Origin: Bacteroidales bacterium
Lineage (GTDB): Bacteria; Bacteroidota; Bacteroidia; Bacteroidales; UBA932
NCBI GenBank assembly: GCA_028707695.1
Contig: JAQWAL010000016.1
Location: 1 to 35,454, forward strand
Length of the DNA stretch: 35,454 nucleotides
Direction of reading: 5' to 3'
Positions 7,457 to 22,807 of the stretch are shown here, one piece after another. How positions within the stretch are numbered: the stretch's first letter is position 1; each line of letters opens with the position of its first letter. A model generated the notes under the pieces. The model searched no databases. It was not told the DNA's origin and was given only the letters and a program-made list of their open reading frames with translations. The position numbers and the translations under genes are program-made.

Positions 7457-8249
7457 AGAAAAAGCATTAGAAAGTTTCGGCAGGTTGCTGGATGTGATGG
7501 ACAAGCTCCGGGCAGAGTGTCCCTGGGACAGGGAGCAGACAATGGAGTCGTTGAGGCCGCTGACCATAGAAGAGACTTATGAGTTGAGCGAAGCCATCCT
7601 GCAAAACGACAGTTTCAATATATCCAAGGAATTGGGTGATTTATTGCTCCATATAGTCTTTTACGCAAAGATAGGGGACGAAAGGTCAGAATTTGATATG
7701 TCAGATGTTATTGATCAATTGTGTGATAAGCTCATATTCCGGCATCCGCATGTGTTTTCCACAACTTCTGTCAATGGCACCCAGGATGTGGTCAAAAATT
7801 GGGAACAACTGAAAGGGGTAGAGAAAAACGGCAACAAATCCTTGCTATCCGGAGTGCCCTCTTCTTTGCCATCGTTAGTGAAGGCATACAGGATACAGGA
7901 CAAGGCCCGGGCTGTCGGTTTTGACTGGCAAGAGAGGTCCCAGGTGTGGGACAAGGTCAAGGAAGAGATTGAGGAGTTTGAATCTGAAGTTGAAAAAAGC
8001 AATTTGCCCGGGGTTGAGGGGGGGTCCGGAAATGAAGTTGAACAGGAGTTTGGTGATTTGCTTTTCTCTTTGGTGAATGCCGCAAGGTTATACAAGATAA
8101 ATCCGGATACTGCATTGGAGACGACAAACAGGAAATTCATAAAGAGATTCAATTATCTGGAAAAAATAGTCAAGGAACAAGGTATGTCGGTCAAGGACCT
8201 CTCCTTGGAGCAGATGGACAAGCTTTGGGAAGAGGCTAAAACAAAATGA
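7449..8249 (+). CDS. mazG: Nucleoside triphosphate pyrophosphohydrolase MazG
   Basis: A 266-residue protein with the two tandem MazG domains of the full-length enzyme. The first has EETYE (41-45) with ELGD (61-64) as metal-binding motif pairs, and CPWDREQ just before it as in E. coli MazG. The second has KEEIEEFESEVEK followed by EQEFGDLLFSLVNAAR. MazG removes non-canonical or excess NTPs to the monophosphate and pyrophosphate. It overlaps the DUF62 gene by eight bases and the tcdA gene by four (ATGA), so all three are translated together. Confidence 0.95.
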   Translation: MNKEKALESFGRLLDVMDKLRAECPWDREQTMESLRPLTIEETYELSEAILQNDSFNISKELGDLLLHIVFYAKIGDERSEFDMSDVIDQLCDKLIFRHPHVFSTTSVNGTQDVVKNWEQLKGVEKNGNKSLLSGVPSSLPSLVKAYRIQDKARAVGFDWQERSQVWDKVKEEIEEFESEVEKSNLPGVEGGSGNEVEQEFGDLLFSLVNAARLYKINPDTALETTNRKFIKRFNYLEKIVKEQGMSVKDLSLEQMDKLWEEAKTK

Positions 8250-9001
8250 CAATGGAGGGAAGAAAGATACCAGAGTGGCAGGCCAGGAGTGAATTGATGT
8301 TGGGAGCAGAGGTTTTGAACAAACTCTTTTCCAAAAAAGTGGTTGTGGTTGGATTGGGAGGAGTGGGTGCTTATGCAGCCGAGATGATAGCCAGGGCCGG
8401 TGTTGGTGCCATGCTTATCCTGGACTCCGATGTTGTGAATGCCTCCAATAAAAACAGGCAATTGTTGGCTTTGGACAGTACGATAGGGAAGTCCAAGGTG
8501 TTTTTGATGGAGGAGCGTCTCAAGGATATTAATCCGGAAATCGGGATTGTAGTAAAAGAGGTTTTCCTGAACCAAGATAATGTGGAGAGGTTGTTGGATG
8601 GTTTTGATGCCGATATTGTGGTGGATGCCATAGATACTTTATCTCCCAAGATTGCATTGATACAATATTGTGTAGGAAAAGGAATTCCACTGGTCAGTTC
8701 AATGGGGGCAGGAGCAAAGATGGATGCAACAAAAATCAAGGTTAAGGACATATCCAAATCGTTCAACTGTCCTTTGGCTTACATGTTAAGGAAACGTCTC
8801 CGCAAACTGGGCATTTCCAAAGGTTTCAAAGTTGTCTTTTCGGAAGAGCTTCCCGATACCTCTGCAATTGTGCCGGTAGAAGAACAAAACAAAAAGTCAC
8901 AAGTGGGTACAATTTCTTATATGCCTGCGGTGTTTGGTTGTATTGTTGCCCAGGCAGTGCTGGATCACCTTATAAAGGAAGTTGGTCATGAAAACAATTG
9001 A
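8246..9001 (+). CDS. tcdA: tRNA threonylcarbamoyladenosine dehydratase TcdA (CsdL)
   Basis: A 251-residue E1-like (ThiF/MoeB superfamily) enzyme. TcdA uses ATP to cyclise N6-threonylcarbamoyladenosine at position 37 of tRNAs. The nucleotide-binding motif GLGGVGAYAAE is at residues 36-46, followed by the acidic end of the second strand and NKNRQL (about 68-73). VVDAIDTLSPK and SSMGAGAKMD fit the TcdA subgroup. The start overlaps the mazG stop (ATGA at 8246); an in-frame ATG two codons later is also possible. The stop runs into the promoter of the next operon. Confidence 0.92.
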   Translation: MTMEGRKIPEWQARSELMLGAEVLNKLFSKKVVVVGLGGVGAYAAEMIARAGVGAMLILDSDVVNASNKNRQLLALDSTIGKSKVFLMEERLKDINPEIGIVVKEVFLNQDNVERLLDGFDADIVVDAIDTLSPKIALIQYCVGKGIPLVSSMGAGAKMDATKIKVKDISKSFNCPLAYMLRKRLRKLGISKGFKVVFSEELPDTSAIVPVEEQNKKSQVGTISYMPAVFGCIVAQAVLDHLIKEVGHENN

Positions 9002-9026
9002 CGATTATTTTTTTTATATATATTTG
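8998..9026 (+). promoter_or_regulatory. Promoter of the GNAT / sensory hydrogenase operon
   Basis: TTG (8998-9000) is followed after 18 bases by TATATTTG (9019-9026), an exact TAnnTTTG box. The TTG overlaps the tcdA stop. The inferred start, near 9033, gives a leader of about 33 bases before ATG 9066. Confidence 0.7.
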
Positions 9027-9065
9027 TAGTTTGATACCAACGCTAAACCTAAACAGATAAAACTG

Positions 9066-10184
9066 ATGGGATTCAACATAAAAGAGGTTATGACCTCGGG
9101 AGAGATTAAGAGATTCATAAAGTTCCCCCATAAACTATACCGTAACAACAAACAGTATGTCCCTGTACTTGATTCTGATGAATACAAGACTTTGACAGCA
9201 AGTCCGTCTTTGGAATATTGCAAAATCAGGATGTGGGTAGCTGTTTCCGAATCCGGTGAAATAATCGGGAGGATAGCAGGGATTTACAATCCACGTTCCA
9301 ATGAATTCCAAAATGAACAGAGGGTTCGTTTTGGCTGGTTCGATTTTATTGATGACAAATCTGTAGCAAAGGCTTTGCTTGAGAAAGTTTCGGAATGGGG
9401 AAAAGACTTGGGAATGAAAGAGATGCATGGCCCGTTAGGGTATAATACATGGAACCGTCAAGGTATGCTCACAGAGGGTTTTGAAAATTTGCCACCGGTG
9501 AATTGCCTTTACAATTTTCCATATTACTCCACTATCATGGACCAATTGGGAATGGAAAAACAATTCGATTGGGTTCAGGTGAAGCTAAAGGCAAATGTTG
9601 GTGTGCCGGACAAGATAAGGAGGATAAACCAGATGTTGCTGGACAAATACAAACTCCGGATTTTGGATATAAAGAATTTGAAAAACTTTGACAAGTTCAT
9701 AGATGGGTTTTTCAAGAGTTACAATGAGAGCTTCAGGGAAATAGACAATTTTGTCCCCCTGACCAAGGCAGAGGTGGAAACTATTGCAAAAGAGTATTTC
9801 CCCAAACTCAGGGATGAGCTTACTTGCATTATTGTAGACCAAAATGACAACATTGCTGCATTCGGTATTTGCTTCCCAAATTTGTCAAAATCTTTCCAGA
9901 AGGCAAAAGGGAAACTTTTCCCATTCGGGATGTACCATATAATGCAGGAGTTCAAAAAATACGACACAATTGACTTGATGATACTTGGGGCCGCACCTGA
10001 GTGGCAAAACAAAGGTATATCATCAATTTACCATACCCATATTGCAACCAACCTTGAGAGGGGGAGAATCAAATATGCAATCACAAACCCTCAGGCAGAA
10101 AACAACTCTGCATATAAGGTGTGGGACAGGTATGGATATGAGCCTTACATGAAACGAAGGTGTTACATCAAAAACATTGAATAA
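9066..10184 (+). CDS. GNAT-like N-acetyltransferase (YghO-like)
   Basis: A 372-residue cytosolic protein with a GNAT fold at its C-terminus. LGAAPEWQNKGISS (about 307-320) is in the place of the acetyl-CoA-binding Q-x-x-G-x-G/A loop, followed by the long helix and a YGYEP end. The N-terminal half (YRNNKQYVPVLDSDE, RFGWFDFIDD, HGPLGYNTWNRQG) resembles the larger YghO-type acetyltransferases, whose substrates are not established. It begins the operon that continues into the DRTGG, ATPase and hydrogenase-like genes, with only two bases to the next start. A Sir2 deacylase closes the same operon, so protein acylation is a possible theme; this is inference. Confidence 0.78.
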   Translation: MGFNIKEVMTSGEIKRFIKFPHKLYRNNKQYVPVLDSDEYKTLTASPSLEYCKIRMWVAVSESGEIIGRIAGIYNPRSNEFQNEQRVRFGWFDFIDDKSVAKALLEKVSEWGKDLGMKEMHGPLGYNTWNRQGMLTEGFENLPPVNCLYNFPYYSTIMDQLGMEKQFDWVQVKLKANVGVPDKIRRINQMLLDKYKLRILDIKNLKNFDKFIDGFFKSYNESFREIDNFVPLTKAEVETIAKEYFPKLRDELTCIIVDQNDNIAAFGICFPNLSKSFQKAKGKLFPFGMYHIMQEFKKYDTIDLMILGAAPEWQNKGISSIYHTHIATNLERGRIKYAITNPQAENNSAYKVWDRYGYEPYMKRRCYIKNIE

Positions 10185-10186
10185 TT

Positions 10187-10531
10187 ATGCTGCTTAAAGA
10201 AGTTTGCGATTTGGTAGGGGGGAGTGTCGTTTGTGGTCAGGAGAGATTGAACGACAATGTGGAGTGTGCATTTGCCTCTGACCTGATGAGCGATGTGCTT
10301 ACCCTCAAAAAAGACCATTTCCTGTTGATCACAGGGTTGGCAAACACTCAGTCTGTCAGGACGGCAGAGATGTCAGATGCACCTTATATCTTATTGTGCA
10401 GGGGCAAACAGGTCTCTTCTGAGATGATGGAACTTGCCTGTGAAAACAATATCCTGATAATCACCAGCAGCCTCTCTTTGTACAAATGTTCCGGACTGTT
10501 GTACAACGCCGGTTTGAATCCTGTCTATTGA
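10187..10531 (+). CDS. DRTGG domain protein (first copy)
   Basis: A 114-residue single-domain protein. The hallmark ASDLMSDVL at residues 30-38, the strand pairs around it and LANTQSVRTAEM fit the DRTGG domain, known from the N-terminal regulatory part of long phosphotransacetylases and from CBS-DRTGG proteins. The ligand is unknown. It lacks the literal DRTGG tetrad, which is common in the family. The second copy at 12303 has its ASDLLSDVM in exactly the same register (30-38), so the two are paralogs. It lies between the acetyltransferase and an RsbW-like ATPase, with gaps of two and one bases. Such stand-alone DRTGG proteins are typical of [FeFe]-hydrogenase clusters in anaerobes. Confidence 0.8.
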   Translation: MLLKEVCDLVGGSVVCGQERLNDNVECAFASDLMSDVLTLKKDHFLLITGLANTQSVRTAEMSDAPYILLCRGKQVSSEMMELACENNILIITSSLSLYKCSGLLYNAGLNPVY

Positions 10532-10532
10532 T

Positions 10533-10946
10533 ATGCAGTTTGAATACAAAGTAGAAGGCGGGGACTTTACAATGGCCGGAGTTGCCTCTTCCCAGGTTAA
10601 GAAAACCCTCAAACAGCTTGGGGTAGATTCGTCCGTAATCAAAAGGGTTGTGGTGGCTTTGTATGAGGCAGAGGTCAATATCGTGGCCCATGCCTACAGA
10701 GGTGTCATTTATGTGGATATAGAAGGTGATGGTATAAAACTCAAACTGGTGGATGAGGGTCCGGGAATACCGGATGTTCCTTTGGCAATGACCAAAGGTT
10801 TTTCCACAGCATCTCCATCTGTGAGGGAGATGGGTTTTGGTGCAGGTATGGGGTTGCCAAATATAAGTGAGAACGCAGATTTTTTTTCCATTGAAACACA
10901 GGTAGGACAGGGAACCACATTGCAAATAGAGATAAATTTTACTTAA
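10533..10946 (+). CDS. RsbW/RsbT-like ATP-binding protein (anti-sigma factor type kinase)
   Basis: A 137-residue GHKL ATPase without any sensor or histidine-phosphotransfer domain. The N-box is YEAEVNIVAHA (44-54), the G1 box DEGPGIPD (74-81) and the G2 box GFGAGMGLPN (101-110). This size and box pattern match the serine kinases RsbW, SpoIIAB and RsbT, which bind sigma factors or antagonists. The gene is separated by one base from the DRTGG gene and by nine from the hydrogenase-like gene. No STAS antagonist or sigma factor gene is in the window, so the partner is unknown; the neighbouring hydrogenase-like protein is a candidate. Confidence 0.85.
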   Translation: MQFEYKVEGGDFTMAGVASSQVKKTLKQLGVDSSVIKRVVVALYEAEVNIVAHAYRGVIYVDIEGDGIKLKLVDEGPGIPDVPLAMTKGFSTASPSVREMGFGAGMGLPNISENADFFSIETQVGQGTTLQIEINFT

Positions 10947-10955
10947 CTTTACAGT

Positions 10956-12290
10956 ATGGAGAGACGTACTACATACAACAGGGCGCTGGAGATTTCCAAA
11001 GATGTATGCATCGGTTGCTCCCATTGTATAAAAGTATGTCCTACCGAGGCACTCAGGGTTTTTGGAGGCAAGGCCGGGATACACGCAGATTGGTGTATAG
11101 ATTGCGGAGAGTGCTACAGGGTTTGCCCAACCAGGGCAATCGGGGTCATTGACGATGATTTCAAGCAGATTTTCAATTATAAGAACAGGGTGCTTCTGGT
11201 ACCTTCTGTTTTTTTTGCACAGTTCGAAGATTCCATACCCAGAAAGGTTATTTACGATATCATTGGAGAACTCGGTTTTACAGAGGTATGTGCCGTGGAG
11301 CAGAGTGTCGATACTCTAATCTCTGAAATCAACGATTATATCCATGATGCAGAAAAACCTGTGATCTCTTCATTTTGCCCAGCAGTGATCCGCCTCATTC
11401 AGGTGAGGTTCCCATCATTGGTGGATAATATCATGAAGCTGCTGCCACCTATTGAAATCACTGCCCAATATTACAAAAAAAGATATGAAAGGGAAGGGGT
11501 TCCTGAGAGTGAGTACGGGATTTTCTACCTTACACCGTGCATTGGCAAGATAGCTGCCGTGAAATCTCCTGTGGGAGGCTATACATCTCCTATAAACGGG
11601 GTGATTAACATGGATTTTTTCTTTAACAAGGTATACCTGGCATACAAACAGAACACACCCATAACAAAGTCCATAAAGATCAACGGAGCCATCTCTTCCA
11701 AAGGGGTTTTGTATCCTACTACAGGAGGGGAATCCAGGCACATAAAAGGGAAAAGCCTTGCAATAGACGGGATGAAGAATGTGATAGATTTTCTGGAGAA
11801 ACTGGAAAACGAAGAGATCAAAGATGTGGATTTCCTGGAAATAAGGGCTTGTGACGAATCCTGTGCCGGGGGGATACTCTCTTACCGCAACCGTTTCCTC
11901 ACTACCAGGAGTTTGAGGGATTACGCATCACAAATGCCGGACACCCACCATTTGATACACGATTACAAATATTACTGCTCTGCAATAGTACATATGGACA
12001 AGATAGAGCCACGGAGCATGGTCAAATATGACAGGGACATAACCATTGCAATAGAAAAGATGGAGAGTGCCCGTAGGTTGAAGCGTCTTTTGCCCGGGAT
12101 AGATTGCGGTGCGTGTGGAGCTCCGAGTTGCGAGGCATTGGCAGAGGATGTAGTGAGAGGTCAGGCACAGGTAAATGCATGTATTTTCCTTAGGACAGTT
12201 TTGGAAAAAATGGGGGAGATCTCTTTGGAAGAGGCAATTGAAATAATGGAAAATATCTGGGGTTCGGAAAGATTTAAAAACGACAAATAA
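10956..12290 (+). CDS. Putative sensory [FeFe]-hydrogenase-like protein (HydS type, no PAS domain)
   Basis: A 444-residue iron-sulfur protein. Two ferredoxin-type [4Fe-4S] sites (Cys18, 21, 24, 57 and Cys47, 50, 53, 28) come first. A hydrogenase large-subunit domain follows. Its four H-cluster cysteines are present: Cys141 in SSFCPAV, Cys195 in TPCIGK, and Cys299 and Cys303 in RACDESCAGG. The catalytic motif is TSCCPAW in the HydA of this window; here the first Cys, the proton shuttle, is Phe140. The L2 Met and Glu are also changed (T-P-C-x-x-K-x-x-A). A C-terminal four-cysteine Fe-S domain (Cys384, 387, 392, 409) replaces the PAS domain of group C HydS. No accessory domain to bind NAD(P)H is seen. 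It probably binds an H-cluster for sensing H2 or redox state, not for turnover. Confidence 0.87.
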   Translation: MERRTTYNRALEISKDVCIGCSHCIKVCPTEALRVFGGKAGIHADWCIDCGECYRVCPTRAIGVIDDDFKQIFNYKNRVLLVPSVFFAQFEDSIPRKVIYDIIGELGFTEVCAVEQSVDTLISEINDYIHDAEKPVISSFCPAVIRLIQVRFPSLVDNIMKLLPPIEITAQYYKKRYEREGVPESEYGIFYLTPCIGKIAAVKSPVGGYTSPINGVINMDFFFNKVYLAYKQNTPITKSIKINGAISSKGVLYPTTGGESRHIKGKSLAIDGMKNVIDFLEKLENEEIKDVDFLEIRACDESCAGGILSYRNRFLTTRSLRDYASQMPDTHHLIHDYKYYCSAIVHMDKIEPRSMVKYDRDITIAIEKMESARRLKRLLPGIDCGACGAPSCEALAEDVVRGQAQVNACIFLRTVLEKMGEISLEEAIEIMENIWGSERFKNDK

Positions 12291-12302
12291 CAAGTTATAT
12301 TT

Positions 12303-12635
12303 ATGAAATTAGCAGAGATTGCCGAAAAACTAGACCTTACGGTGTTTTCAGGAGAAAACAACCTTGACAAGGAGGTTACAGGAGGTTATGCATCGGACCT
12401 CTTATCCGATGTGATGGGCCATGCAAAAGAGGGGCAGATTTGGGTGACTCTCCAAACCCACAAAAACACAATGGGTGTTGCTTCTCTGAAAGATTTGAGT
12501 GCGGTTGTCCTTGTAAAAGGATTTGCCCCTGAGGCAGACACTCTCAAACTTTCCGAAATAGAAGGTATTCCCGTTTTGGGAAGTGACAAGGAAGCTTTTG
12601 AGCTTTGCGGGGAGCTCTACAAGTTATTGGGTTGA
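12303..12635 (+). CDS. DRTGG domain protein (second copy)
   Basis: A 110-residue DRTGG domain. VTGGYASDLLSDVM spans residues 25-38, and KEGQIWVTLQTHKNTMGVASL follows, typical of the stand-alone DRTGG proteins in hydrogenase clusters. It is a paralog of the protein at 10187 with the hallmark at the same residue numbers, but the rest has drifted widely, so the two copies may bind different partners or form a heterodimer. The stop codon overlaps the presumed TTG start of the PHP gene (TTGA at 12632-12635). Confidence 0.82.
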   Translation: MKLAEIAEKLDLTVFSGENNLDKEVTGGYASDLLSDVMGHAKEGQIWVTLQTHKNTMGVASLKDLSAVVLVKGFAPEADTLKLSEIEGIPVLGSDKEAFELCGELYKLLG

Positions 12636-13363
12636 AAGCTGACCTTCATATCCACACTGTACTTTCTCCTTGTGGAGATATTGAAATGACACCTGTGGCT
12701 ATTGTGAAAAATGCTCTTGACAAAGGATTGGAAATAATTGGTATAACAGACCACAACTCTACCCGTCAAGCTCCAATAATAAAAAAGATTGCTGCCAGGT
12801 ATGGATTGCATGTGTTGTGCGGTGCAGAGATCACTACCAAAGAGGAGGTGCATGTGCTTGCTTTTGTAGATGGGTTGGATAAACTGGAAGCATTGCAAGG
12901 CTTCCTTGACCAGAACCTGGTCAAAGTGCCCAATGATCCTGTTTTTTTTGGATACCAATTGGTTGTGGATGAAGATGAAAATGTTTTGTACCAAGAAGAT
13001 GACCTGTTGATAGGTGCAATATCCGTGGGAATAGACCAGGTGGCAAAGTTTGTACACTCCCTTGGGGGTGTTTTTATTCCGGCGCATATTGATAAAAAAG
13101 CCAATTCACTTATCAGCCAGTTGGGATTTGTTCCTTCGGATATTGAAGCAGATGCATTTGAACTCTCTTGTATATGTGATGTGGTCTCTTTTTTCAAATC
13201 CAACCCCCATTTGTCCGGCAGGAATTTCATATCTTCTTCGGATGCCCATTTTCCGGGGGACATAGGGAAGTGTTGCAGCAACCTTGATATTTGTGATTTC
13301 TCTTTTGCCTCTTTTGTTGAAGCGTTGAGGCATTCTGCCGTCGATGATTTTGTGAAAAATTGA
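12632..13363 (+). CDS. PHP domain phosphoesterase
   Basis: A 243-residue PHP-type metal-dependent phosphoesterase, if it starts at TTG 12632. The metal ligands are in place: H6 and H8 in LHIHT, D40 and H41 in ITDHN, E66 in GAEI, H152 in PAHID, and D204 and H206 in SSDAH. The family includes nucleotide and histidinol-phosphate phosphatases, and the substrate here is unknown. The open frame extends upstream to TTG 12605, but TTG 12632 is preferred. It begins with KADLHIHT right after the start, as in homologs, and its bases overlap the stop of the DRTGG gene as TTGA, a coupling arrangement. PHP genes of this kind are recurrent neighbours of [FeFe]-hydrogenase clusters. Confidence 0.85.
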   Translation: MKADLHIHTVLSPCGDIEMTPVAIVKNALDKGLEIIGITDHNSTRQAPIIKKIAARYGLHVLCGAEITTKEEVHVLAFVDGLDKLEALQGFLDQNLVKVPNDPVFFGYQLVVDEDENVLYQEDDLLIGAISVGIDQVAKFVHSLGGVFIPAHIDKKANSLISQLGFVPSDIEADAFELSCICDVVSFFKSNPHLSGRNFISSSDAHFPGDIGKCCSNLDICDFSFASFVEALRHSAVDDFVKN

Positions 13364-13370
13364 TTTTAGC

Positions 13371-13931
13371 ATGAACGATCTCTCCCTACATATAATAGAT
13401 ATTATCCAAAACTCCCTCTGTGCAGGTGCATCCCTTTTGAAGATAACCATCAACGAAGATACTGCTGCAAAGGTATTGGCCATTGAGATAGAAGATAATG
13501 GCAAGGGCATGGATGCAAGCCAGCTTGCAAGGCTTGACGATCCATTCTTTACCTCCAGGACTACCAGGAGGGTGGGCATGGGTATTCCATTGTTCCGCCA
13601 GTCGGCCCAACAGAGTGGTGGCGATTTGGTTGTCTCTTCAAGGCTTGGAACAGGTACCAAGGTGACTGCCTCTTTCCGTACGGACAATATTGACATGCCT
13701 CCTTTGGGAGATATTGCGAACAGCCTGATACTTATGGTCTCTGCCAATCCTGACAAAGACTTCCATTTTAGATATGTCTATGATGGGAGTGAATACATCT
13801 TTGATACAATGGAGGTCAAGGATGTGTTGGAGGGATTGCCATTGAACGACCCCTCTGTAATCAGGATGCTCACAGGAATGGTTCAGTCCAACATAGAAGA
13901 TTTAAAAGGAGAGTCGGGGAACAATGGATAA
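13371..13931 (+). CDS. GHKL ATPase domain protein (histidine kinase-like ATPase without a kinase domain)
   Basis: A 186-residue protein with a complete GHKL ATP-binding domain: N-box helix HIIDIIQNSLCAGA (about 7-20), G1 EDNGKGM (41-47), DPFFTSRTTRRVGMGIP (57-73) as F and G2 boxes, then SSRLGTGTKV. No dimerisation helix with a phosphorylatable His and no sensor domain are present, so it is not a classical two-component kinase. A C-terminal extension of about 70 residues has no recognisable domain. It starts seven bases after the PHP gene and overlaps the Sir2 gene by eight bases. The activity and partner are unknown; it resembles the ATPase commonly found in hydrogenase clusters with HydABC. 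Confidence 0.82.
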   Translation: MNDLSLHIIDIIQNSLCAGASLLKITINEDTAAKVLAIEIEDNGKGMDASQLARLDDPFFTSRTTRRVGMGIPLFRQSAQQSGGDLVVSSRLGTGTKVTASFRTDNIDMPPLGDIANSLILMVSANPDKDFHFRYVYDGSEYIFDTMEVKDVLEGLPLNDPSVIRMLTGMVQSNIEDLKGESGNNG

Positions 13932-14622
13932 AAAACGTGTTGTATTGCTCACCGGAGCAGGGGTGAGTGCCGATAGTGGCTTGGAGACATTCAGGGCTTC
14001 TGATGGTTTGTGGGCAAAACACAGGATTGAAGATGTTTGCACCCCTGAGGCACTGGAGAGGAATCCAAAGCTTGTGCTGGATTTTTACAATGCCAGGAGA
14101 AGGCAGCTGAAAAATGTCAGGCCAAATGCAGGACATTATGCGGTTGCAAAGCTTGAAGAGTATTTTGATGTGGATGTGGTGACCCAAAATGTAGATGATT
14201 TGCATGAACGGGCTGGCAGCAAAAACGTTTTGCACCTGCATGGAGAGCTTACCAAATGCAGAAGTGTTCTGGACCCATTATACATTGCAGATATTGAAGG
14301 AGATATACATGTAGGTGACCTATGTCCCAAAGGGGGGCAATTGAGGCCATATATCGTTTTCTTTGGCGAGGCAGTGCCTATGTTGGAAAAGGCTGCCAGG
14401 ATTGTGGCAAAGGCCGATATCCTGATTGTAGCAGGGACATCGTTGGCAGTTTACCCGGCTGCCGGTTTGGTGGGGTATGCTCCATATGATACGGTTTTCT
14501 ATATCCTGGACCCATCTCCAATACAAATTGGAGGAAGGAGGGTGATACATATGAAAAAGAGATTTGCAGAGTCTATGCCTGAGTTGACAAATATTTTGGT
14601 TGAAAAATATAATTGTATATAA
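13924..14622 (+). CDS. Sir2-family NAD-dependent protein deacylase (CobB-like, class III type)
   Basis: A 232-residue sirtuin. The NAD-binding GAGVSADSGLETFR starts at residue 11, QNVDDLHERAG is at 88-98, the catalytic His is H106 in LHLHGE, and VAGTSLAVYPA closes the Rossmann fold. Tyr55 and Arg58 (FYNAR) form the Y-x-x-R signature of class III sirtuins, which remove succinyl or malonyl groups as well as acetyl. Of the four zinc cysteines only Cys112 and Cys134 are visible, so the zinc site may be lost; similar loss occurs in other Bacteroidota sirtuins as far as I recall. It overlaps the preceding ATPase gene by eight bases and is the last gene of the operon. Confidence 0.9.
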   Translation: MDKKRVVLLTGAGVSADSGLETFRASDGLWAKHRIEDVCTPEALERNPKLVLDFYNARRRQLKNVRPNAGHYAVAKLEEYFDVDVVTQNVDDLHERAGSKNVLHLHGELTKCRSVLDPLYIADIEGDIHVGDLCPKGGQLRPYIVFFGEAVPMLEKAARIVAKADILIVAGTSLAVYPAAGLVGYAPYDTVFYILDPSPIQIGGRRVIHMKKRFAESMPELTNILVEKYNCI

Positions 14623-14748
14623 TTTACGCAGAGATGTTTAGCTAAGTTGTTATGATAATATGAAAGCTAAATGATTATAAATAGTAAGTTTTGTTGATAA
14701 AAATTGTTGTTTATTTATAATTAAATCTTTTATTTTGTTAAGTTATTT

Positions 14749-14778
14749 TTTGTATTCGTAATAAAATATATACTTTTA
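14749..14778 (+). promoter_or_regulatory. Promoter of the catalytic hydrogenase operon
   Basis: In the AT-rich 197-base gap after the Sir2 gene, TTTG (14749-14752) is followed after 18 bases by TACTTTTA (14771-14778), seven of eight bases of the TAnnTTTG element. It leaves a leader of about 35 bases before ATG 14820. No Crp/Fnr-type or Rex-type palindrome is seen in the gap. Confidence 0.5.
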
Positions 14779-14819
14779 AAAGTTAAAACGGGAGATATCA
14801 AAACCAAATAATAAATAGT

Positions 14820-15221
14820 ATGAATAAAATCAAATCCCTTGACGATTTGCGCAAGATGAAGCAAAGTCTGGAACACGGAATGAATATCCGTGAGAAAAGC
14901 AATTCGCCGGAGTCTCTTGTTCAGATTCGTGTCGCCATGGCAACATGCGGAATAGCTGCAGGTGCCAGGACGGTCATGAATACTCTCATTGAGAAGATAG
15001 AGAAGGAGAAGATACCTGCCGTTGTGACCCAGGGCGGGTGTATGGGTTATTGCTATGCAGAGCCTACCATAGAGGTAAAGGTACCCGGCAAAGATCCGGT
15101 TGTCTTTGGTAATGTGGACTCTAAAGTGGCAATTGAGATCGTAGACAAATACATTGTAAACGGAGAACTGATAGACGGTGTCATTCCAACGAACTATCAG
15201 ACAATTAATGAGCAAAAGTAG
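14820..15221 (+). CDS. hndB: HndB-like thioredoxin-fold [2Fe-2S] protein
   Basis: A 133-residue protein like subunit HndB of the NADP-reducing hydrogenase of Desulfovibrio. It has a thioredoxin-like [2Fe-2S] fold: Cys43 in MATCGIAAGAR, and Cys74 and Cys78 in QGGCMGYCYAEP. The position of the fourth cysteine is Ala, as I recall for HndB proteins in general, so whether a cluster is bound is unclear. The N-terminus is a charged helix (KSLDDLRKMKQSL). It is the first gene of the hydrogenase operon, five bases before hydB, and probably belongs to the soluble complex as a small accessory or electron-transfer subunit. Confidence 0.85.
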   Translation: MNKIKSLDDLRKMKQSLEHGMNIREKSNSPESLVQIRVAMATCGIAAGARTVMNTLIEKIEKEKIPAVVTQGGCMGYCYAEPTIEVKVPGKDPVVFGNVDSKVAIEIVDKYIVNGELIDGVIPTNYQTINEQK

Positions 15222-15226
15222 AATTT

Positions 15227-17020
15227 ATGGCACAGTACAAAATGCATTTGCTGGTTTGTGGTGGCACCGGATGCCGGGCCTCACAAAGTGAAGAGATCAT
15301 AAAGAATCTCAACACAGAAATTAAGAACCTGGGCCTCGAAAATGATGCACAGGTTGTGACAACAGGATGTTTCGGATTTTGCGAAAAGGGTCCCATTGTA
15401 AAGATTGTTCCGGACAACACTTTCTATACTCAGGTAAAACCGGAGGATTGTGAAGAGATTGTCAGGGAACACATCCTCAAAGGAAGGAAGGTAACCAGAC
15501 TTCTTTACGAAGACCCCGAGACACACAAGCATGTAGAGGACTCCAAGCATATGGGTTTCTACCAGAAACAACTCAGGATTGCCCTAAGGAACTGTGGATT
15601 CATAGATCCGGAAAACATTGACGAATATATTGCCCGTGACGGATATGCTGCCATAGCAAAGATCTTTGAAAGCATGACACCACAACAGGCAATAGACGAG
15701 ATCAAGAAGTCCGGACTAAGAGGACGTGGCGGCGGAGGTTTCCCGACCGGACTCAAATGGGAGATAGCTTCAAAAAACAGTGCCGACCAAAAGTATGTGG
15801 TATGTAATGCAGATGAGGGAGACCCGGGTGCATTCATGGACCGCTCAATATTGGAGGGTGACCCCCATTCGGTTATTGAGGCAATGGCTATTTGCGGGTA
15901 CTGTATTGGTGCCACCAAAGGTCTTGTATATATCAGGGCAGAATATCCTTTGGCCATTAAACGTTTACAAACTGCAATCAAGCAAGCCAGGGAGTATGGC
16001 CTTTTAGGTAATGACATAATGGACTCTGGCTTTGACTTTGATATTGAATTGAAATATGGTGCAGGAGCATTTGTTTGCGGAGAGGAGACATCACTGATCC
16101 ACTCAATGGAGGGGCTCAGGGGAGAACCGACTGTAAAACCGCCATTCCCTGCAGAGAAAGGTTACAAAGGCAAGCCTACCAATGTGAACAACGTAGAGAC
16201 ATTTGCCAACGTTCCTGTGATTTATCTCAAAGGTGCAGATTGGTACAACAAGATTGGCACAGAGAAATCCAAAGGGACAAAAGTATTTGCCCTGGCAGGA
16301 AAAATCAACAATGTAGGCCTTATTGAAGTTCCTATGGGAATCACCTTGCGTGAAGTGATTTTTGAAATTGGCGGGGGTATCAAGAACGGTAAGAAATTCA
16401 AGGCTGTGCAGACAGGAGGACCTTCGGGAGGTTGCCTTACCGAAAAGCACCTGGACACACCAATAGATTTTGACAATCTGATAGCTTCCGGATCTATGAT
16501 GGGTTCCGGTGGAATGATTGTGATGGACGAGGATGACTGTATGGTTTCCATGGCAAAATTCTATCTGGAGTTTACAGTGGAGGAATCTTGTGGCAAATGT
16601 GCTCCGTGCCGTATAGGTAACAAAAGGCTACACGAGATTTTGGAGAAAATTTGTGCAGGAAAAGGAACTGAAGACGACCTGGAGTACCTCGAGAACCTGA
16701 GCAAGGTTATCAAGGATACCTCTCTTTGCGGTCTTGGACAAACTTCTCCAAATCCGGTACTCTCCACTCTGGAAAATTTCTACGATGAGTACCTTTCACA
16801 TGTGAAGGAGAGAAGATGTATTGCAGGAAGTTGTAAGGCCCTTAAACTTTATACAATCATTTCTGATAAATGTACCGGTTGTACAGCTTGTACCAGGGCT
16901 TGTCCTGTTGGTGCAATCACAGGGGAAAAACGTCAACCTCACGTGATAGATGCAGACAAATGTATCCGTTGTGGTGCATGTTACGACAAGTGTAAATTCA
17001 CAGCTATTCATGTTCAATAA
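15227..17020 (+). CDS. hydB: Electron-bifurcating [FeFe] hydrogenase subunit beta (HydB/HndC, NuoF-like flavoprotein)
   Basis: A 597-residue flavoprotein that, in the known HydABC complexes, binds FMN and NAD(H) and joins NADH and ferredoxin oxidation to H2 formation. In order, it shows a thioredoxin-like [2Fe-2S] domain with Cys11, 16, 48 and 52, the FMN loop RGRGGGGFPTGLKWE, the NAD-site strand with ADEGDPGAFMDR, GAGAFVCGEETSLIHSMEG, the NuoF [4Fe-4S] motif ESCGKCAPCRIG, and two C-terminal ferredoxin [4Fe-4S] motifs (CTGCTACTRACP, CIRCGACYDKC). This full layout is that of bifurcating enzymes and is longer than NuoF of complex I. It lies between the HndB-like gene and hydA with short gaps. 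Confidence 0.96.
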   Translation: MAQYKMHLLVCGGTGCRASQSEEIIKNLNTEIKNLGLENDAQVVTTGCFGFCEKGPIVKIVPDNTFYTQVKPEDCEEIVREHILKGRKVTRLLYEDPETHKHVEDSKHMGFYQKQLRIALRNCGFIDPENIDEYIARDGYAAIAKIFESMTPQQAIDEIKKSGLRGRGGGGFPTGLKWEIASKNSADQKYVVCNADEGDPGAFMDRSILEGDPHSVIEAMAICGYCIGATKGLVYIRAEYPLAIKRLQTAIKQAREYGLLGNDIMDSGFDFDIELKYGAGAFVCGEETSLIHSMEGLRGEPTVKPPFPAEKGYKGKPTNVNNVETFANVPVIYLKGADWYNKIGTEKSKGTKVFALAGKINNVGLIEVPMGITLREVIFEIGGGIKNGKKFKAVQTGGPSGGCLTEKHLDTPIDFDNLIASGSMMGSGGMIVMDEDDCMVSMAKFYLEFTVEESCGKCAPCRIGNKRLHEILEKICAGKGTEDDLEYLENLSKVIKDTSLCGLGQTSPNPVLSTLENFYDEYLSHVKERRCIAGSCKALKLYTIISDKCTGCTACTRACPVGAITGEKRQPHVIDADKCIRCGACYDKCKFTAIHVQ

Positions 17021-17029
17021 TCCACTTCT

Positions 17030-18793
17030 ATGGAAAAGATAAATTTAACTATAGACAATATAAATGTAGAAGTAGATAAAGGCACTACTATCTACAAGGC
17101 AGCCAAGAAAGCAGGGATTGACATCCCGGTGCTTTGCTACCTTAACCTGGAGCATCTAAATATTGAAAACCGTCCGGGAGGATGCCGTATATGCGTTGTG
17201 GAGGTTGAAGGCAGGAAAAACCTTGCTCCATCTTGCTCTACGGAGTGTACCCAAGGGATGGTTGTAAAAACACATACCCTAAGGGTGCTCAATGCCAGGA
17301 AAACCGTTTTGGAACTGATCCTCTCTGACCACCCTGCTGCATGTCTTACATGTTCCTCTTCGGGGCAATGCGATTTGCAGGACCTTTCACAAAAGATGGG
17401 AATAAGGGAGATACATGCAGTAGAAAATGCAAAGGTGTCCACTTACCGTAAGGATGCTTCTCCTGCCCTTAACAGGGACATGGACAAATGTATAATGTGC
17501 CGCCGTTGCGAGACTATTTGTAATGATGTACAGACAGTTGGCGCGTTAAGCGGAATCAACAGGGGATTCATGTCTGTTGTAGCTCCTGCTTTTGAGCAGG
17601 ACCTGGAGGACTCTCCTTGTACTTTCTGCGGTCAGTGTGTGGCTGTTTGTCCTACAGGTGCACTTACTCCTTTTGACGATACAAACAGGGTTATCCGGGC
17701 TTTGGCCGATCCTAAGAAAACGGTTATTGTACAGACTGCTCCTGCAGTAAGGGCTGCCCTTGGAGAGGAGTTTGGAATGGAGCCGGGTACTTTGGTCACA
17801 GGTAAAATGGTGGCTGCTTTGAGGACTTTGGGTTTTGACAAGGTTTTCGATACCGATTTTGCTGCAGACCTTACAATCATGGAAGAGGGAACCGAGTTGC
17901 TGGGCCGTCTTACAAAATTCCTGGCTGGTGACAAGGATGTGAAATTACCAATTCTTACATCGTGCTGTCCTGCGTGGGTCAATTTCTTTGAACACAACTA
18001 CACCGATATGCTGGATGTGCCATCTACGGCTCGTTCGCCACAGCAGATGTTCGGTGCCATTGCAAAGACCTACTTTGCCGACATGATGAAGGTGAAACGT
18101 GAAGATTTGGTTGTGGTGTCTGTGATGCCGTGCCTTGCCAAAAAGTATGAGTGTGAGCGTGACGAATTCAAGGTAGACGGGAATCCGGATGTGGATTACT
18201 CTATCTCTACGCGCGAACTGGCACGTCTTATAAAGGCAGCCAATATCAACTTCAAGGCTTTGCCAGACGAAGATTATGACAATCCTATGGGTGAATCTAC
18301 CGGAGCAGGTGTCATATTCGGTGTTACCGGTGGTGTTATTGAAGCTGCCGTTCGTACTGCATATGAGCTCCATACCGGCAAGAAATTGCAAAAAATTGAT
18401 TTTGAAGAACTGCGTGGTTTGGAGGGAATCCGTATGGCAACAATAGATTTTGACGGGATTCCTATCAACATAGGAATTGCCCATCAATTGGGGAATGCCC
18501 GCAAGTTGTTGGATGGAATACGTTCTGGCATGTACAATTTCCATGCAATCGAGATCATGGCATGTCCGGGAGGTTGTATTGGTGGAGCTGGCCAGCCGTT
18601 GCACCATGGTGACTCAAATATCATCCGTGCACGTTTTGATGCCATTTACCGTGAAGATGCAGGAAAACCAATCCGCAAGTCGCATGAAAACCCTTATATT
18701 GTCAAATTGTATGAAGAGTTCCTGGGTCATCCGATGAGTGAAAAGGCCCATCACCTGCTACATACACACTACTTCGAAAAACATAAAATCTAG
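17030..18793 (+). CDS. hydA: [FeFe] hydrogenase catalytic subunit alpha (HydA/HndD, group A3)
   Basis: A 587-residue catalytic subunit that makes or oxidises H2 in the cytosol. Domains in order: a [2Fe-2S] site (Cys36, 52, 55, 69), a His-Cys3 [4Fe-4S] site (His101, Cys105, 108, 114), two [4Fe-4S] sites (Cys154, 157, 160, 164 and Cys197, 200, 203, 207) and the H-cluster domain. There L1 is TSCCPAW with shuttle Cys312 and ligand Cys313, L2 is MPCLAKKYE (Cys368), and L3 is MACPGGCIGGAGQP (Cys512 and 516). The small-subunit domain at the C-terminus (about 530-575) is fused. All catalytic residues are intact, in contrast with the hydrogenase-like protein upstream. The maturases HydE, HydF and HydG are not in the window. 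Confidence 0.97.
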   Translation: MEKINLTIDNINVEVDKGTTIYKAAKKAGIDIPVLCYLNLEHLNIENRPGGCRICVVEVEGRKNLAPSCSTECTQGMVVKTHTLRVLNARKTVLELILSDHPAACLTCSSSGQCDLQDLSQKMGIREIHAVENAKVSTYRKDASPALNRDMDKCIMCRRCETICNDVQTVGALSGINRGFMSVVAPAFEQDLEDSPCTFCGQCVAVCPTGALTPFDDTNRVIRALADPKKTVIVQTAPAVRAALGEEFGMEPGTLVTGKMVAALRTLGFDKVFDTDFAADLTIMEEGTELLGRLTKFLAGDKDVKLPILTSCCPAWVNFFEHNYTDMLDVPSTARSPQQMFGAIAKTYFADMMKVKREDLVVVSVMPCLAKKYECERDEFKVDGNPDVDYSISTRELARLIKAANINFKALPDEDYDNPMGESTGAGVIFGVTGGVIEAAVRTAYELHTGKKLQKIDFEELRGLEGIRMATIDFDGIPINIGIAHQLGNARKLLDGIRSGMYNFHAIEIMACPGGCIGGAGQPLHHGDSNIIRARFDAIYREDAGKPIRKSHENPYIVKLYEEFLGHPMSEKAHHLLHTHYFEKHKI

Positions 18794-18798
18794 AGGTC

Positions 18799-19281
18799 AT
18801 GAGTACAACATTCAAAATACAAGAAAGCCACATCAAAACGATTCACGATATATGTGACTCTTTCAACAATGATCCGGGAGAACTGATTAATGTTTTGCAC
18901 AAATGTCAGGGTGAATTTGGATATTTGCCGGAAGATGTGCAACGTGAGATCGCAAGTAAGATGAAAATCTCTGTTGCCAAGGTTTATGGGGTAGTCTCTT
19001 TTTACTCCTTCTTTACAATGACTCCAAAAGGAAGGCATGCCATTTCCGTTTGTATGGGAACTGCATGCTATGTACGTGGTGCAGAGAAGGTTGTGGATGA
19101 GTTCAAAAGCCAGCTTTCCATCAAGGTGGGAGGAGTGACAGAAGACGGGAAATTTTCCCTTGATTGCCTGCGTTGCGTGGGAGCTTGCGGGCTTGCTCCG
19201 GTAGTGCTTATCGGGGAAAAAGTATACGGCCGTGTGGAACCTCACCAGGTAAAGGATATCCTGGCAGAATACAACGACTAG
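18799..19281 (+). CDS. hydC: Electron-bifurcating [FeFe] hydrogenase subunit gamma (HydC/HndA, NuoE-like)
   Basis: A 160-residue NuoE-like subunit. The [2Fe-2S] ligands are Cys85 and Cys90 in SVCMGTACYVRG, and Cys126 and Cys130 in CLRCVGACGLAP. The N-terminal helical part with YGVVSFYSFF is also typical. In the complex it passes electrons to HydB. It starts five bases after the hydA stop and ends the operon before a strong terminator. In the clusters I know best this subunit comes first; here it is last, behind hydA. That is a rearranged order rather than a defect. Confidence 0.95.
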   Translation: MSTTFKIQESHIKTIHDICDSFNNDPGELINVLHKCQGEFGYLPEDVQREIASKMKISVAKVYGVVSFYSFFTMTPKGRHAISVCMGTACYVRGAEKVVDEFKSQLSIKVGGVTEDGKFSLDCLRCVGACGLAPVVLIGEKVYGRVEPHQVKDILAEYND

Positions 19282-19374: not shown

Positions 19375-20079
19375 TTATTTGCCTAATTTGCCCTCTACCT
19401 CTTCTTTGGATAATTTTTTTGTGCAGAAGAACCAGTCGTGGCATGTTACCCCCTCTTCTTGCCCGCTCATCCTGCTTTGTGCAACGCCACATGAACCTGC
19501 TGTAGGTACTATGACATCGTCTCCGGGACGCCAGTCTGCCGGAAGTGCAACTTTGAAGTTGTCTGCAGTCTGGAGGGCTATCAAAGTCCTTTTGAGTTCG
19601 TCAAAGTTGCGGCCAATTTCCAATGGGTAATAGATTATTGCCCTTACAATTCCTTTGGGGTCAATGAAAAAAACTGCCCTGACAGCTTTTGTGTTGCTTT
19701 GTCCTGGTTGGATCATGCCGTATTTGTTTGCAACTTCCATAGTGATGTCCTCTATCAAAGGGAATTTTACCTCGATATCTTTCATCCCTTTGTATTGTAT
19801 CTTCTCCTTTATGGTACGTAGCCAGGCAATGTGGCTGTAGAGGCCGTCTACAGAGAGACCTACCAGTTGGCAGTTGAGTTTTTCAAAATCATCTGCCATG
19901 CTGGCAAATGTCATGAACTCCGATGTGCAAACCGGAGTGAAGTCTGCCGGGTGGCTGAAAAGTATTGCCCATTTGCCTTTGTAGTCAGATGGGAAATTGA
20001 TGTCGCCCTGGGTTGTTACCGCTTTGAATTCAGGAGCAGGATCGCCAATTTTTGGCATTGAATAAATTTTCTCTTCCAT
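19375..20079 (-). CDS. Peroxiredoxin (Prx6 / archaeal 1-Cys-like type)
   Basis: A 234-residue peroxiredoxin of the Prx6 / archaeal TPx class. The peroxidatic Cys51 is in PADFTPVCTSEF, and Pro and Thr of the P-x-x-x-T-x-x-C motif are present. Later residues include the Arg of KAVRAVFFID and the long C-terminal arm with Cys197, and Cys213 plus Cys219 in TCHDWFFC. The C-terminal cysteines resemble the resolving cysteines of the archaeal enzymes. It reduces H2O2 or alkyl peroxides with thiol electron donors, and would shield the oxygen-sensitive hydrogenase and Hcp of the flanking genes. It has a full promoter upstream and no partner gene. Confidence 0.93.
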   Translation of the reverse strand: MEEKIYSMPKIGDPAPEFKAVTTQGDINFPSDYKGKWAILFSHPADFTPVCTSEFMTFASMADDFEKLNCQLVGLSVDGLYSHIAWLRTIKEKIQYKGMKDIEVKFPLIEDITMEVANKYGMIQPGQSNTKAVRAVFFIDPKGIVRAIIYYPLEIGRNFDELKRTLIALQTADNFKVALPADWRPGDDVIVPTAGSCGVAQSRMSGQEEGVTCHDWFFCTKKLSKEEVEGKLGK

Positions 20080-20130
20080 GATTTTTCTTATTATTGATTA
20101 ACTTGATTATTGTCTGTTTTTAAATTCAAA

Positions 20131-20162
20131 CAAATTTAACAATGAATAAGGTATAAATCAAA
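20131..20162 (-). promoter_or_regulatory. Promoter of the peroxiredoxin gene
   Basis: On the minus strand TTTG (20159-20162) is followed after 20 bases by TAAATTTG (20131-20138), an exact TAnnTTTG box. The predicted leader is about 45 bases before ATG 20079. The 134-base gap 20080-20213 shows no other clear signal. Confidence 0.7.
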
Positions 20163-20213
20163 TAGATTAAAATAATGTAATAATAGATGTAGTCAATGAA
20201 AATTTTCTTATGG

Positions 20214-20921
20214 TTATGATAACATATTTTGTAACAGTGTTTTGTTTAAAACAGTTATTTTGTTCCTTTCTGCTTTGATTGCTCCCTCTTGTTGGATTTC
20301 GGCAAGTGTCCTGGCAAGTGCCGGTCTGGTTACACCAAAGGATTTTGCCAGCTCGGTCTGGTTTTTATCCATCAGGAATGTGTTGATTTTTGGGCTGAAG
20401 GAGTGGCATATGGAGAGTTGTTCCAGAATGTAGTGGGCTAGTTTGCCTTTTATGGTTTTTATTGTGAGCACTTGCAGTTTGTGGGACAGGAACTGGGTTT
20501 TGTTTGCATTGTAGGTGATGTACCTCTGCATGAATGCAGCATCTTTTTGGAACAGTTCAATAACTTGGTCTTTGGGTATCATAAGGACCAATGAGTCCTC
20601 CAGGGTAATTACATCTACGGGGAACCTGTTGTTCTCTGCAAAGAGGAATGCAGATGCCAATGGCCTTTGTGCTTTTATCACTTCAATTGTAAGCTGCCCC
20701 CCGGTTTCGGTTACCATTTCGGTTTTGACAGCTCCCTTGAGCAGTATGTACAGGTATTTGCATATATCTCCCTGTCGGGCAATGACATCACCTTTTTTAT
20801 AGTGTTTGGTTTTGTACATCATTCCACCAAAGAAAGCCTCCCGGTTTTCAGGTGAAATGGAGCTGCAGACAGGGCAGTCGGAAACATCTGGCCAATTGTG
20901 GGTTTCTGAAGTGGGAACCAT
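20214..20921 (-). CDS. Crp/Fnr family transcriptional regulator (HcpR-like)
   Basis: A 235-residue regulator. A cyclic-nucleotide-binding-like beta-roll covers about 30-150 (HYKKGDVIARQGD, GQLTIEVIKAQRP), and a winged helix-turn-helix follows at about 185-215 (TELAKSFGVTRPALARTLAEI). The N-terminus has Cys16 and Cys19 (DCPVC). It is divergent from hcp, so it is probably the local HcpR, a nitrosative-stress regulator of hcp in Bacteroidota and sulfate reducers. The start at ATG 20921 is chosen because the longer frame to 21095 would run over the hcp promoter and start and lacks any family feature. Ligand is not determined from sequence; heme is known for P. gingivalis HcpR. Confidence 0.85.
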   Translation of the reverse strand: MVPTSETHNWPDVSDCPVCSSISPENREAFFGGMMYKTKHYKKGDVIARQGDICKYLYILLKGAVKTEMVTETGGQLTIEVIKAQRPLASAFLFAENNRFPVDVITLEDSLVLMIPKDQVIELFQKDAAFMQRYITYNANKTQFLSHKLQVLTIKTIKGKLAHYILEQLSICHSFSPKINTFLMDKNQTELAKSFGVTRPALARTLAEIQQEGAIKAERNKITVLNKTLLQNMLS

Positions 20922-20953
20922 TTTTTTTACGAAAATATGAATTTTTATGCAAG

Positions 20954-20969
20954 TGTAACAACTATCACA
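20954..20969. promoter_or_regulatory. Crp/Fnr-type operator of hcp
   Basis: TGTAA (20954-20958), six bases, TCACA (20965-20969) matches the TGTGA-N6-TCACA palindrome of the Crp/HcpR family in nine of ten positions. It lies between the divergent regulator and hcp genes. Its centre (20961.5) is about 40 bases before the start inferred from the -7 box at 20991-20998, the place of a class II activator site. Confidence 0.7.
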
Positions 20970-20990
20970 CATTTTTGGTTCGTAAAGGGA

Positions 20991-20998
20991 TAGTTTTG
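20991..20998 (+). promoter_or_regulatory. -7 element of the hcp promoter
   Basis: TAGTTTTG is an exact TAnnTTTG box, 40 bases before ATG 21038. No TTG element is present 18-20 bases upstream; the Crp/Fnr-type palindrome occupies that area instead, which fits an activator-dependent promoter. Confidence 0.65.
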
Positions 20999-21037
20999 CA
21001 CTGTAAAATCGAATATTAACTGAAAAACAAATTATTG

Positions 21038-22781: not shown

Positions 22782-22789
22782 TACTTTTG
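22782..22789 (+). promoter_or_regulatory. -7 element before prfA
   Basis: TACTTTTG is an exact TAnnTTTG box, 18 bases before ATG 22808, just after the hcp terminator. No TTG element at the normal distance is seen, so the promoter is only half supported. Confidence 0.5.
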
Positions 22790-22807
22790 CAACCAATTTT
22801 AGTAAAT

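Follow-up and report, generated by a model that had tools for sequence, protein, structure and literature searches.

What does a compact row of eight genes around a hydrogenase-like sensor encode, and do all eight belong together? The question is raised by a 35,454-nucleotide stretch of Bacteroidales DNA (assembly GCA_028707695.1, contig JAQWAL010000016.1; here called the window), in which eight genes lie in tandem on the + strand at 9066-14622, with a GNAT-like acetyltransferase gene first, a Sir2 deacylase gene last and gaps of, in order, 2, 1, 9, 12, -4, 7 and -8 bases. The coordinates confirm the packing described in the original prediction, in which same-strand genes overlap or are separated by at most 12 bases, and Pfam bears out the eight family names given there, both DRTGG calls being near the cut-off. 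We find that the tandem is real, that it continues into [FeFe]-hydrogenase genes at 14820-19281, and that it comprises two different things: a core of six genes, encoding DRTGG1, an RsbW-like ATPase, the sensor-like hydrogenase HydS, DRTGG2, a PHP phosphoesterase and a GHKL ATPase, and the two genes at its ends. The core six are a conserved cassette around a hydrogen-sensor-like protein, beside a hydrogen-handling enzyme. With moderate confidence we read them as an H2- or redox-sensing signalling cassette that would regulate the adjacent NADH-linked [FeFe]-hydrogenase, with GNAT and Sir2 outside the core.

Conservation of the six-gene core

At a threshold of E 1e-60, HydS relatives were counted in 110 of the 393 genomes examined from the order, 15 of 59 from the family and 3 of 296 drawn from the phylum, one of these three being the window itself. 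As a set outside the family we used the loci of 75 HydS genomes (73 from the same order and two from other classes of the phylum), scored with profile hidden Markov models that we built on the window genes together with related sequences; 66 of these loci are long enough to judge six-gene order. By a strict script, 53 of the 66 testable loci have the six core genes in order; this is a lower bound, because two loci (L054 and L055) fail only through a second weak GHKL match further along. When the hydrogenase genes are counted too, making ten families, the complete set was found in 43 of 59 outside loci. The core six recur together across many genera, and the predicted unit, in which DRTGG, PHP and GHKL proteins accompany a hydrogenase-like sensor beside an [FeFe]-hydrogenase operon, is conserved. 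A contig scan with a single protein query returned 15 loci, from close relatives only.

The adjoining hydrogenase genes are also on the + strand and start 197 bases after the eight-gene block. They encode HydFd (14820-15221), the NuoF-like flavin subunit HydB (15227-17020, a sequence family match), the catalytic [FeFe]-hydrogenase HydA (17030-18793) and the NuoE-like subunit HydC (18799-19281, assigned from sequence and position). HydA exceeds the cut-off of NF040763, the NCBIfam group A6 model labelled 'NADH-dependent' (891 bits, cut-off 765), so we call the enzyme NADH-linked and leave electron bifurcation aside. HydFd is a small protein without any match in the Pfam scan, placed by its position before HydB across relatives' loci, and we infer that it is the [2Fe-2S] thioredoxin-like hydrogenase subunit. 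The window genome, a small one, also carries two HydG maturase genes above the curated cut-off (contigs C22 and C34; loci L279 and L280).

HydS and the hydrogenase co-occur across genomes. HydB, scored as present at E 1e-230 or better, was found in 107 of 110 HydS genomes versus 42 of 283 genomes without HydS, counts that come from related rather than independent genomes, so that the tiny P value is not to be taken literally. The three HydB-negative HydS genomes are G212, G313 and G397, and in G212 and G313 HydB is cut by the contig end. That dependence among genomes is one of several points that weigh against a signalling cassette dedicated to the neighbouring hydrogenase. Thirteen of the 66 loci fail the six-gene test: several carry DRTGG1-RsbW-HydS alone, L071 carries HydS-DRTGG2-PHP-GHKL alone, and L075 and L112 have the halves in the opposite order. 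The cassette stands without adjoining hydrogenase genes in at least 12 loci and in the Parabacteroides locus L283, and where the hydrogenase is not adjacent the genes after the cassette are of mixed housekeeping types (10 proteins scanned). The DRTGG matches are marginal, at 25.5 bits for DRTGG1 and 23.7 for DRTGG2 against a gathering score of 25.2 (24.9 and 22.8 when the genome was searched), and the roles of the partners are predictions from their sequences. The partial loci and the swapped halves suggest that the cassette consists of two sub-blocks.

Two variants of the arrangement were seen. In many other families, with L038, L039, L043 and L045 as examples, the cassette sits between two hydrogenases, because another HydC-HydB-HydA set stands about 4.5 kb upstream of HydS. 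In L101 and L102, from the other classes of the phylum, HydC lies between GHKL and HydFd, an arrangement that we liken to the placing of GHKL with structural genes in Subdoligranulum.

The active site of HydS

HydS (10956-12290, +) was recognised by Fe_hyd_lg_C (76.6 bits, cut-off 22.1) and by its motifs. We counted residues in 109 distinct HydS proteins, 433-469 residues long from aligned start to the end of the open reading frame, using CpI numbering for positions 299, 353 and 497. The four H-cluster cysteines are kept in all 109, K358 in 107, and a C-terminal Cx2Cx4Cx16C motif in all 109. The proton-transfer cysteine C299 is lost in every protein and replaced by Phe (99) or Tyr (10); M353 is replaced by Thr (105), Ser (3) or Ala (1), and M497 by Arg (105), Lys (3) or His (1). 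The group D proton path, which we matched through motif and spacing, is largely present, with E252 in 107 of 109, D265 in 107, E289 in 109 and Ser or Thr at 249 in 103; the published path is described as E252, D265, E289 and S249 in TamHydS numbering (PMC10407848). No PAS domain was found in the window HydS by the Pfam scan.

These features agree with the signature published for putative H2-sensory hydrogenases of group D (M2e), and we annotate HydS as a putative sensor of that type. In the printed descriptions Ala is usual at 299 in groups C and D, Ser or Thr at 353 is typical of M2e, and 497 is poorly conserved. Given these norms, Phe or Tyr at 299 and Arg, Lys or His at 497 make the predicted Bacteroidota active site (Phe/Tyr, Thr and Arg at 299, 353 and 497) a distinct signature. 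The contrast extends to TamHydS of Thermoanaerobacter mathranii, itself group D/M2e, which has Ala at 299 and Leu at 497 where all 109 proteins here have Phe or Tyr and Arg, Lys or His. The near-invariant aromatic-Thr-basic active site is a natural variant for H-cluster chemistry.

Intact H-cluster ligands and an intact proton path would also suit a module that serves the hydrogenase as a slow enzyme or in electron transfer, with the ATPases, DRTGG proteins and PHP protein acting in assembly or metabolism rather than in signalling. A 2026 study, which describes the C-terminal cluster of TamHydS as showing no redox response to H2 (PMC13104023), points the same way. The loss of the proton-transfer cysteine from every HydS argues in the other direction, as do the slow, high-affinity-type behaviour reported for TamHydS (PMC8163306) and the presence of kinase-like and phosphoesterase partners with intact motifs. 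We regard a non-signalling module as possible, though unlikely.

Partner proteins and a proposed route of signalling

Intact motifs are found in both ATPases and in the PHP protein, whose catalytic residues are conserved at the level of sequence. The RsbW/SpoIIAB-like GHKL ATPase (10533-10946, +; PF13581, HATPase_c_2 44.2 bits, cut-off 27.4) is a candidate serine kinase with Bergerat ATP-binding boxes: the N box is kept in 93 of 96 relatives, D.GPGI in 96 of 96 and GFGAGMG in 95 of 96. It falls below the curated equivalog scores, with 47.5 bits for spIIAB (cut-off 135) and 16.1 for RsbW (cut-off 145), and neither a STAS partner nor a sigma factor is found among the 13 assigned genes from TcdA to HydC. 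The PHP-family phosphoesterase (12632-13363, +; PF02811 and PF13263, PHP 37.1 bits, cut-off 26.4) has a TTG start that overlaps the DRTGG2 stop, with an alternative in-frame TTG at 12605; its DHxH-type motif is kept in 81 of 89 relatives and SDxH in 87 of 89. The second GHKL ATPase (13371-13931, +; HATPase_c 52.2 bits, cut-off 26.4) matches PF02518 on residues 8-103 and has an extra C-terminal part; DxGxG is present in 83 of 83 relatives, and the Pfam scan found no histidine-phosphotransfer domain in it.

The two DRTGG proteins are small and strongly patterned. DRTGG1 (10187-10531, +; 114 amino acids, PF07085) carries the motif SDLMSDVL...TGLxNxQ..R, with SDLMSDVL in 86 of 94 relatives, and gave a single weak, chance-like match against the PDB. 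DRTGG2 (12303-12635, +; 110 amino acids, PF07085 slightly below the cut-off) carries SDLLSDVM...WxTxQxHxN, with W.T.Q.H.N in 88 of 89 relatives.

Under the signalling reading, HydS would change shape with the H2 or redox state of its H-cluster, and this change would switch the RsbW-like ATPase, which may bind or phosphorylate its neighbour DRTGG1 with the conserved SDLMSDVL. DRTGG2, PHP and GHKL would form a second arm, in which PHP may remove a phosphate. The output would target either the hydrogenase or its expression. Because no gene for a DNA-binding protein is present in the six-gene cassette, direct control of transcription and an action on the enzyme or by way of a partner encoded elsewhere are equally likely. 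GNAT would already have stood beside TcdA, and Sir2 would have entered the operon in the window genus.

The genes at the two ends

In the original prediction all eight genes formed one functional unit, in which the sensor sets two GHKL switches while an acetyl writer and an acetyl eraser modify hydrogenase or acetate enzymes. The tight packing of the eight genes speaks for this, and so does part of the distribution of GNAT, a GNAT-fold acyltransferase gene (9066-10184, +; PF00583, Acetyltransf_1 27.7 bits, cut-off 20.7) that is the co-directional first gene of the tandem. All 25 genomes of the window genus have it immediately ahead of DRTGG1, which argues against a mere passenger, and so do 4 of the 11 other HydS genomes of the family (G717, G743, G726 and G758). 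Its neighbour on the other side encodes TcdA, a TcdA-like ThiF-family protein (8246-9001, +; PF00899) that forms the left border of the site; the right border in the family is PrfA, release factor 1 (22787-23893, +; PF03462 and PF00472).

Elsewhere in the family GNAT and the cassette also occur apart. The other 7 of the 11 HydS genomes have the cassette without GNAT, as in G748, where it lies between TcdA and PrfA. Three genomes without HydS (G041, G390 and G759) have the order TcdA-GNAT-PrfA, G711 has TcdA-PrfA, and G722 has TcdA-GNAT-HydB-HydA-HydC-PrfA. Outside the family a GNAT relative was found in none of the 75 loci, 70 of which extend more than 2.6 kb upstream of HydS. GNAT is TcdA's neighbour and probably a passenger of the cassette, not a core part. 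We considered and dropped the idea that the cassette was inserted between GNAT and PrfA in the window genus alone: HydC-PrfA junctions also occur in g363, g19, g346 and another family (G182, L257), so that gain of the cassette and its loss from g18 and others are equally likely.

The GNAT family is present in 123 of 149 genomes of the order, often in several copies. Among 32 paralogue loci, mostly with 1.5 kb flanks (L119-L147 and L150-L152 among them), a PF00155 serine-palmitoyltransferase-like gene adjoins in 7 and an epimerase gene in 8, one member per cluster being Pfam-checked; the window copy itself lacks this linkage. The protein bCerS is GNAT-type. Spt, CerR and bCerS genes are described as clustering in bacteria (PMC11334938). 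Taken with this clustering, the company of the paralogues makes a lipid N-acyltransferase role for the family likely, rather than protein acetylation, and suggests from gene linkage that the family may be ceramide-synthase-like. These lipid-type flanks count against an acetyl writer. The window GNAT matched the broad PF00583 only, with no known protein acetyltransferase relative and no NCBIfam family, and no PDB entry reached E 0.1.

Sir2 (13924-14622, +; PF02146, SIR2 141.2 bits, cut-off 24) is single-copy in the window genome. Of the 25 genomes of the genus, 19 have it inside the operon, which speaks for a single unit. It is absent from G006, G007, G015 and G016, sits on another contig in G003 and could not be decided in G002. 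Relatives 48-57% identical over most of its length occur in many genomes of the order, and none stands at the 75 outside-family loci, 66 of which extend more than 4.6 kb downstream of HydS. Sir2 is an ordinary Bacteroidales Sir2 inserted in this genus, not a core part. The refuting condition set with the original prediction, that GNAT and Sir2 are not neighbours of the rest in related genomes, thus holds; the acetyltransferase-sirtuin bracket lacks support in the form proposed, and we rejected GNAT and Sir2 as a general writer and eraser, given their absence from all outside loci and the GNAT-PrfA arrangement without the cassette. A single functional unit of eight genes is very improbable. The bracketing seen in one genome is neighbourhood history, not design.

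The window Sir2 has the motifs GAGVSADSG, QNVD, HLHGE and YNAR and matches the NAD-dependent deacylase entry 6rxj of the PDB at E 1.7e-53. It scores below the NCBIfam CobB equivalog (190.8 bits, cut-off 320) and has no zinc CxxC; two such pairs were found in 0 of 33 copies. Because YNAR is as in CobB/SIRT5-type deacylases (YxxR), acyl groups besides acetyl are conceivable as substrates.

One locus complicates this picture. In G735, one genome of a second genus, 31 bases separate HydS from the start of a Sir2 gene behind it, a linkage that argues against a mere passenger; DRTGG2, PHP and GHKL were not found at that HydS locus, and the rest of the genome was not searched for them. The HydS tree places G735 outside the clade of g363, g346, g19, g354 and the window genus (100/98), within which an operon Sir2 occurs only in the window genus. 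In the Sir2 tree, where 15 of 32 inner branches are open, G735 groups with other families (89/92) and not with the window Sir2; the tree analysis carries long-branch warnings. From these two placements, two independent entries of Sir2 are apparently the simpler reading, resting on the one genome. Sir2 alone could then be a repeated functional recruit, an NAD+-dependent deacylase through which the NAD+/NADH ratio would tune HydS, its partners or the NADH-linked hydrogenase. Its place differs between the window genus (after GHKL) and G735 (after HydS); this and the separation in both trees favour such recruitment. The poorly resolved Sir2 tree, a gene that is single-copy and movable, its absence outside the family and a second case of one genome all count against it. 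We hold this recruitment to be doubtful, and the link of Sir2 to the cassette is a weak lead only. Still less probable is a wider version, in which the cassette would be the long-missing group D sensor pathway, a partner switch with DRTGG replacing STAS and a PHP readout, and Sir2 would have been recruited at least twice for NAD+/NADH input.

Relation to described systems

How group D putative sensors pass on their signal, lacking the PAS domain of group C, is described as open (PMC8163306). The signalling cassette that we favour, kept in many Bacteroidales families and in a Bacillota record, names five candidate signalling partners for them. Parts of it are already in print, and it is not a new kind of system. 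TamHydS is described as adjoining a histidine-kinase-like ATPase (PMC8163306), and M2e sensors as preceding group A hydrogenases, with kinases also close by (PMC3561251). In Halanaerobium hydrogeniformans, Halsa_1862-1871 comprise a hydrogenase, NADH dehydrogenase, ferredoxin-like protein, histidine kinase, NuoE, PHP protein, iron-sulfur-binding hydrogenase and anti-sigma/Ser-Thr kinase; the gene order differs from that here, the account lists no GNAT or Sir2, and the function was not the subject of that paper (PMC4237134). Petrimonas mucosa, like the window genome, has a sensor-type HydA of the Bacteroidales (ING2E5A_0849) three genes before hndABCD (0853-0856), the identity of the three intervening genes being presumed from their number; it differs in its HydDB class, group C1, and the account makes no mention of GNAT or Sir2 (PMC7768429).

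The closest gene order is in Parabacteroides distasonis, where UNS60_RS15185-RS15160 encode a hypothetical protein (DRTGG1), an ATP-binding protein, an [Fe-Fe] hydrogenase-like protein, a DRTGG protein, a PHP protein and an ATP-binding protein, in the same order; unlike in the window, no hydrogenase genes, GNAT or Sir2 were seen within 19 kb. This cassette (L283) lies on NZ_OY725779.1, a record of 375 kb classed as a plasmid. Subdoligranulum variabile (Bacillota) shares DRTGG1-RsbW-HydS-DRTGG2-PHP, but its GHKL lies in a divergent HydC-GHKL-HydFd-HydB-HydA set beside, and its HydS has Ala, Thr and Asp at 299, 353 and 497. Ruminococcus albus 7 also pairs a putative sensory hydrogenase, a group C-like HydS (L285, NC_014824.1), with a phosphatase partner; that HydS differs in its fused C-terminal sensory part, and its neighbours are a SpoIIE phosphatase and a phosphotransferase rather than DRTGG, PHP and GHKL. 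In the literature that we searched, DRTGG, PHP and hydrogenase are nowhere dealt with jointly, and the one paper found to pair a DRTGG domain with hydrogenase concerned another gene.

Transcription signals and flanking genes

A TANNTTTG box at 9019-9026 (+), which agrees with the Bacteroidota -7 consensus, is the candidate -7 element of the operon and the sole + strand match between 6642 and 20990. This single box fits one long transcript, as would be expected from the single promoter predicted, with none internal. No + strand terminator-like site is listed within 14623-14819. Two sigma-70-like sites, at 14584 and 14694, lie ahead of the hydrogenase genes, among 15 sites observed versus 13.7 expected; the sigma-70 consensus is not known to be used by Bacteroidota. 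Between HydC and PrfA, at 19375-22693, the window and several relatives of its genus carry genes for a peroxiredoxin (-), a Crp-type regulator (-) and a hybrid-cluster-type protein (+), and in g363 and g19 PrfA follows HydC directly.

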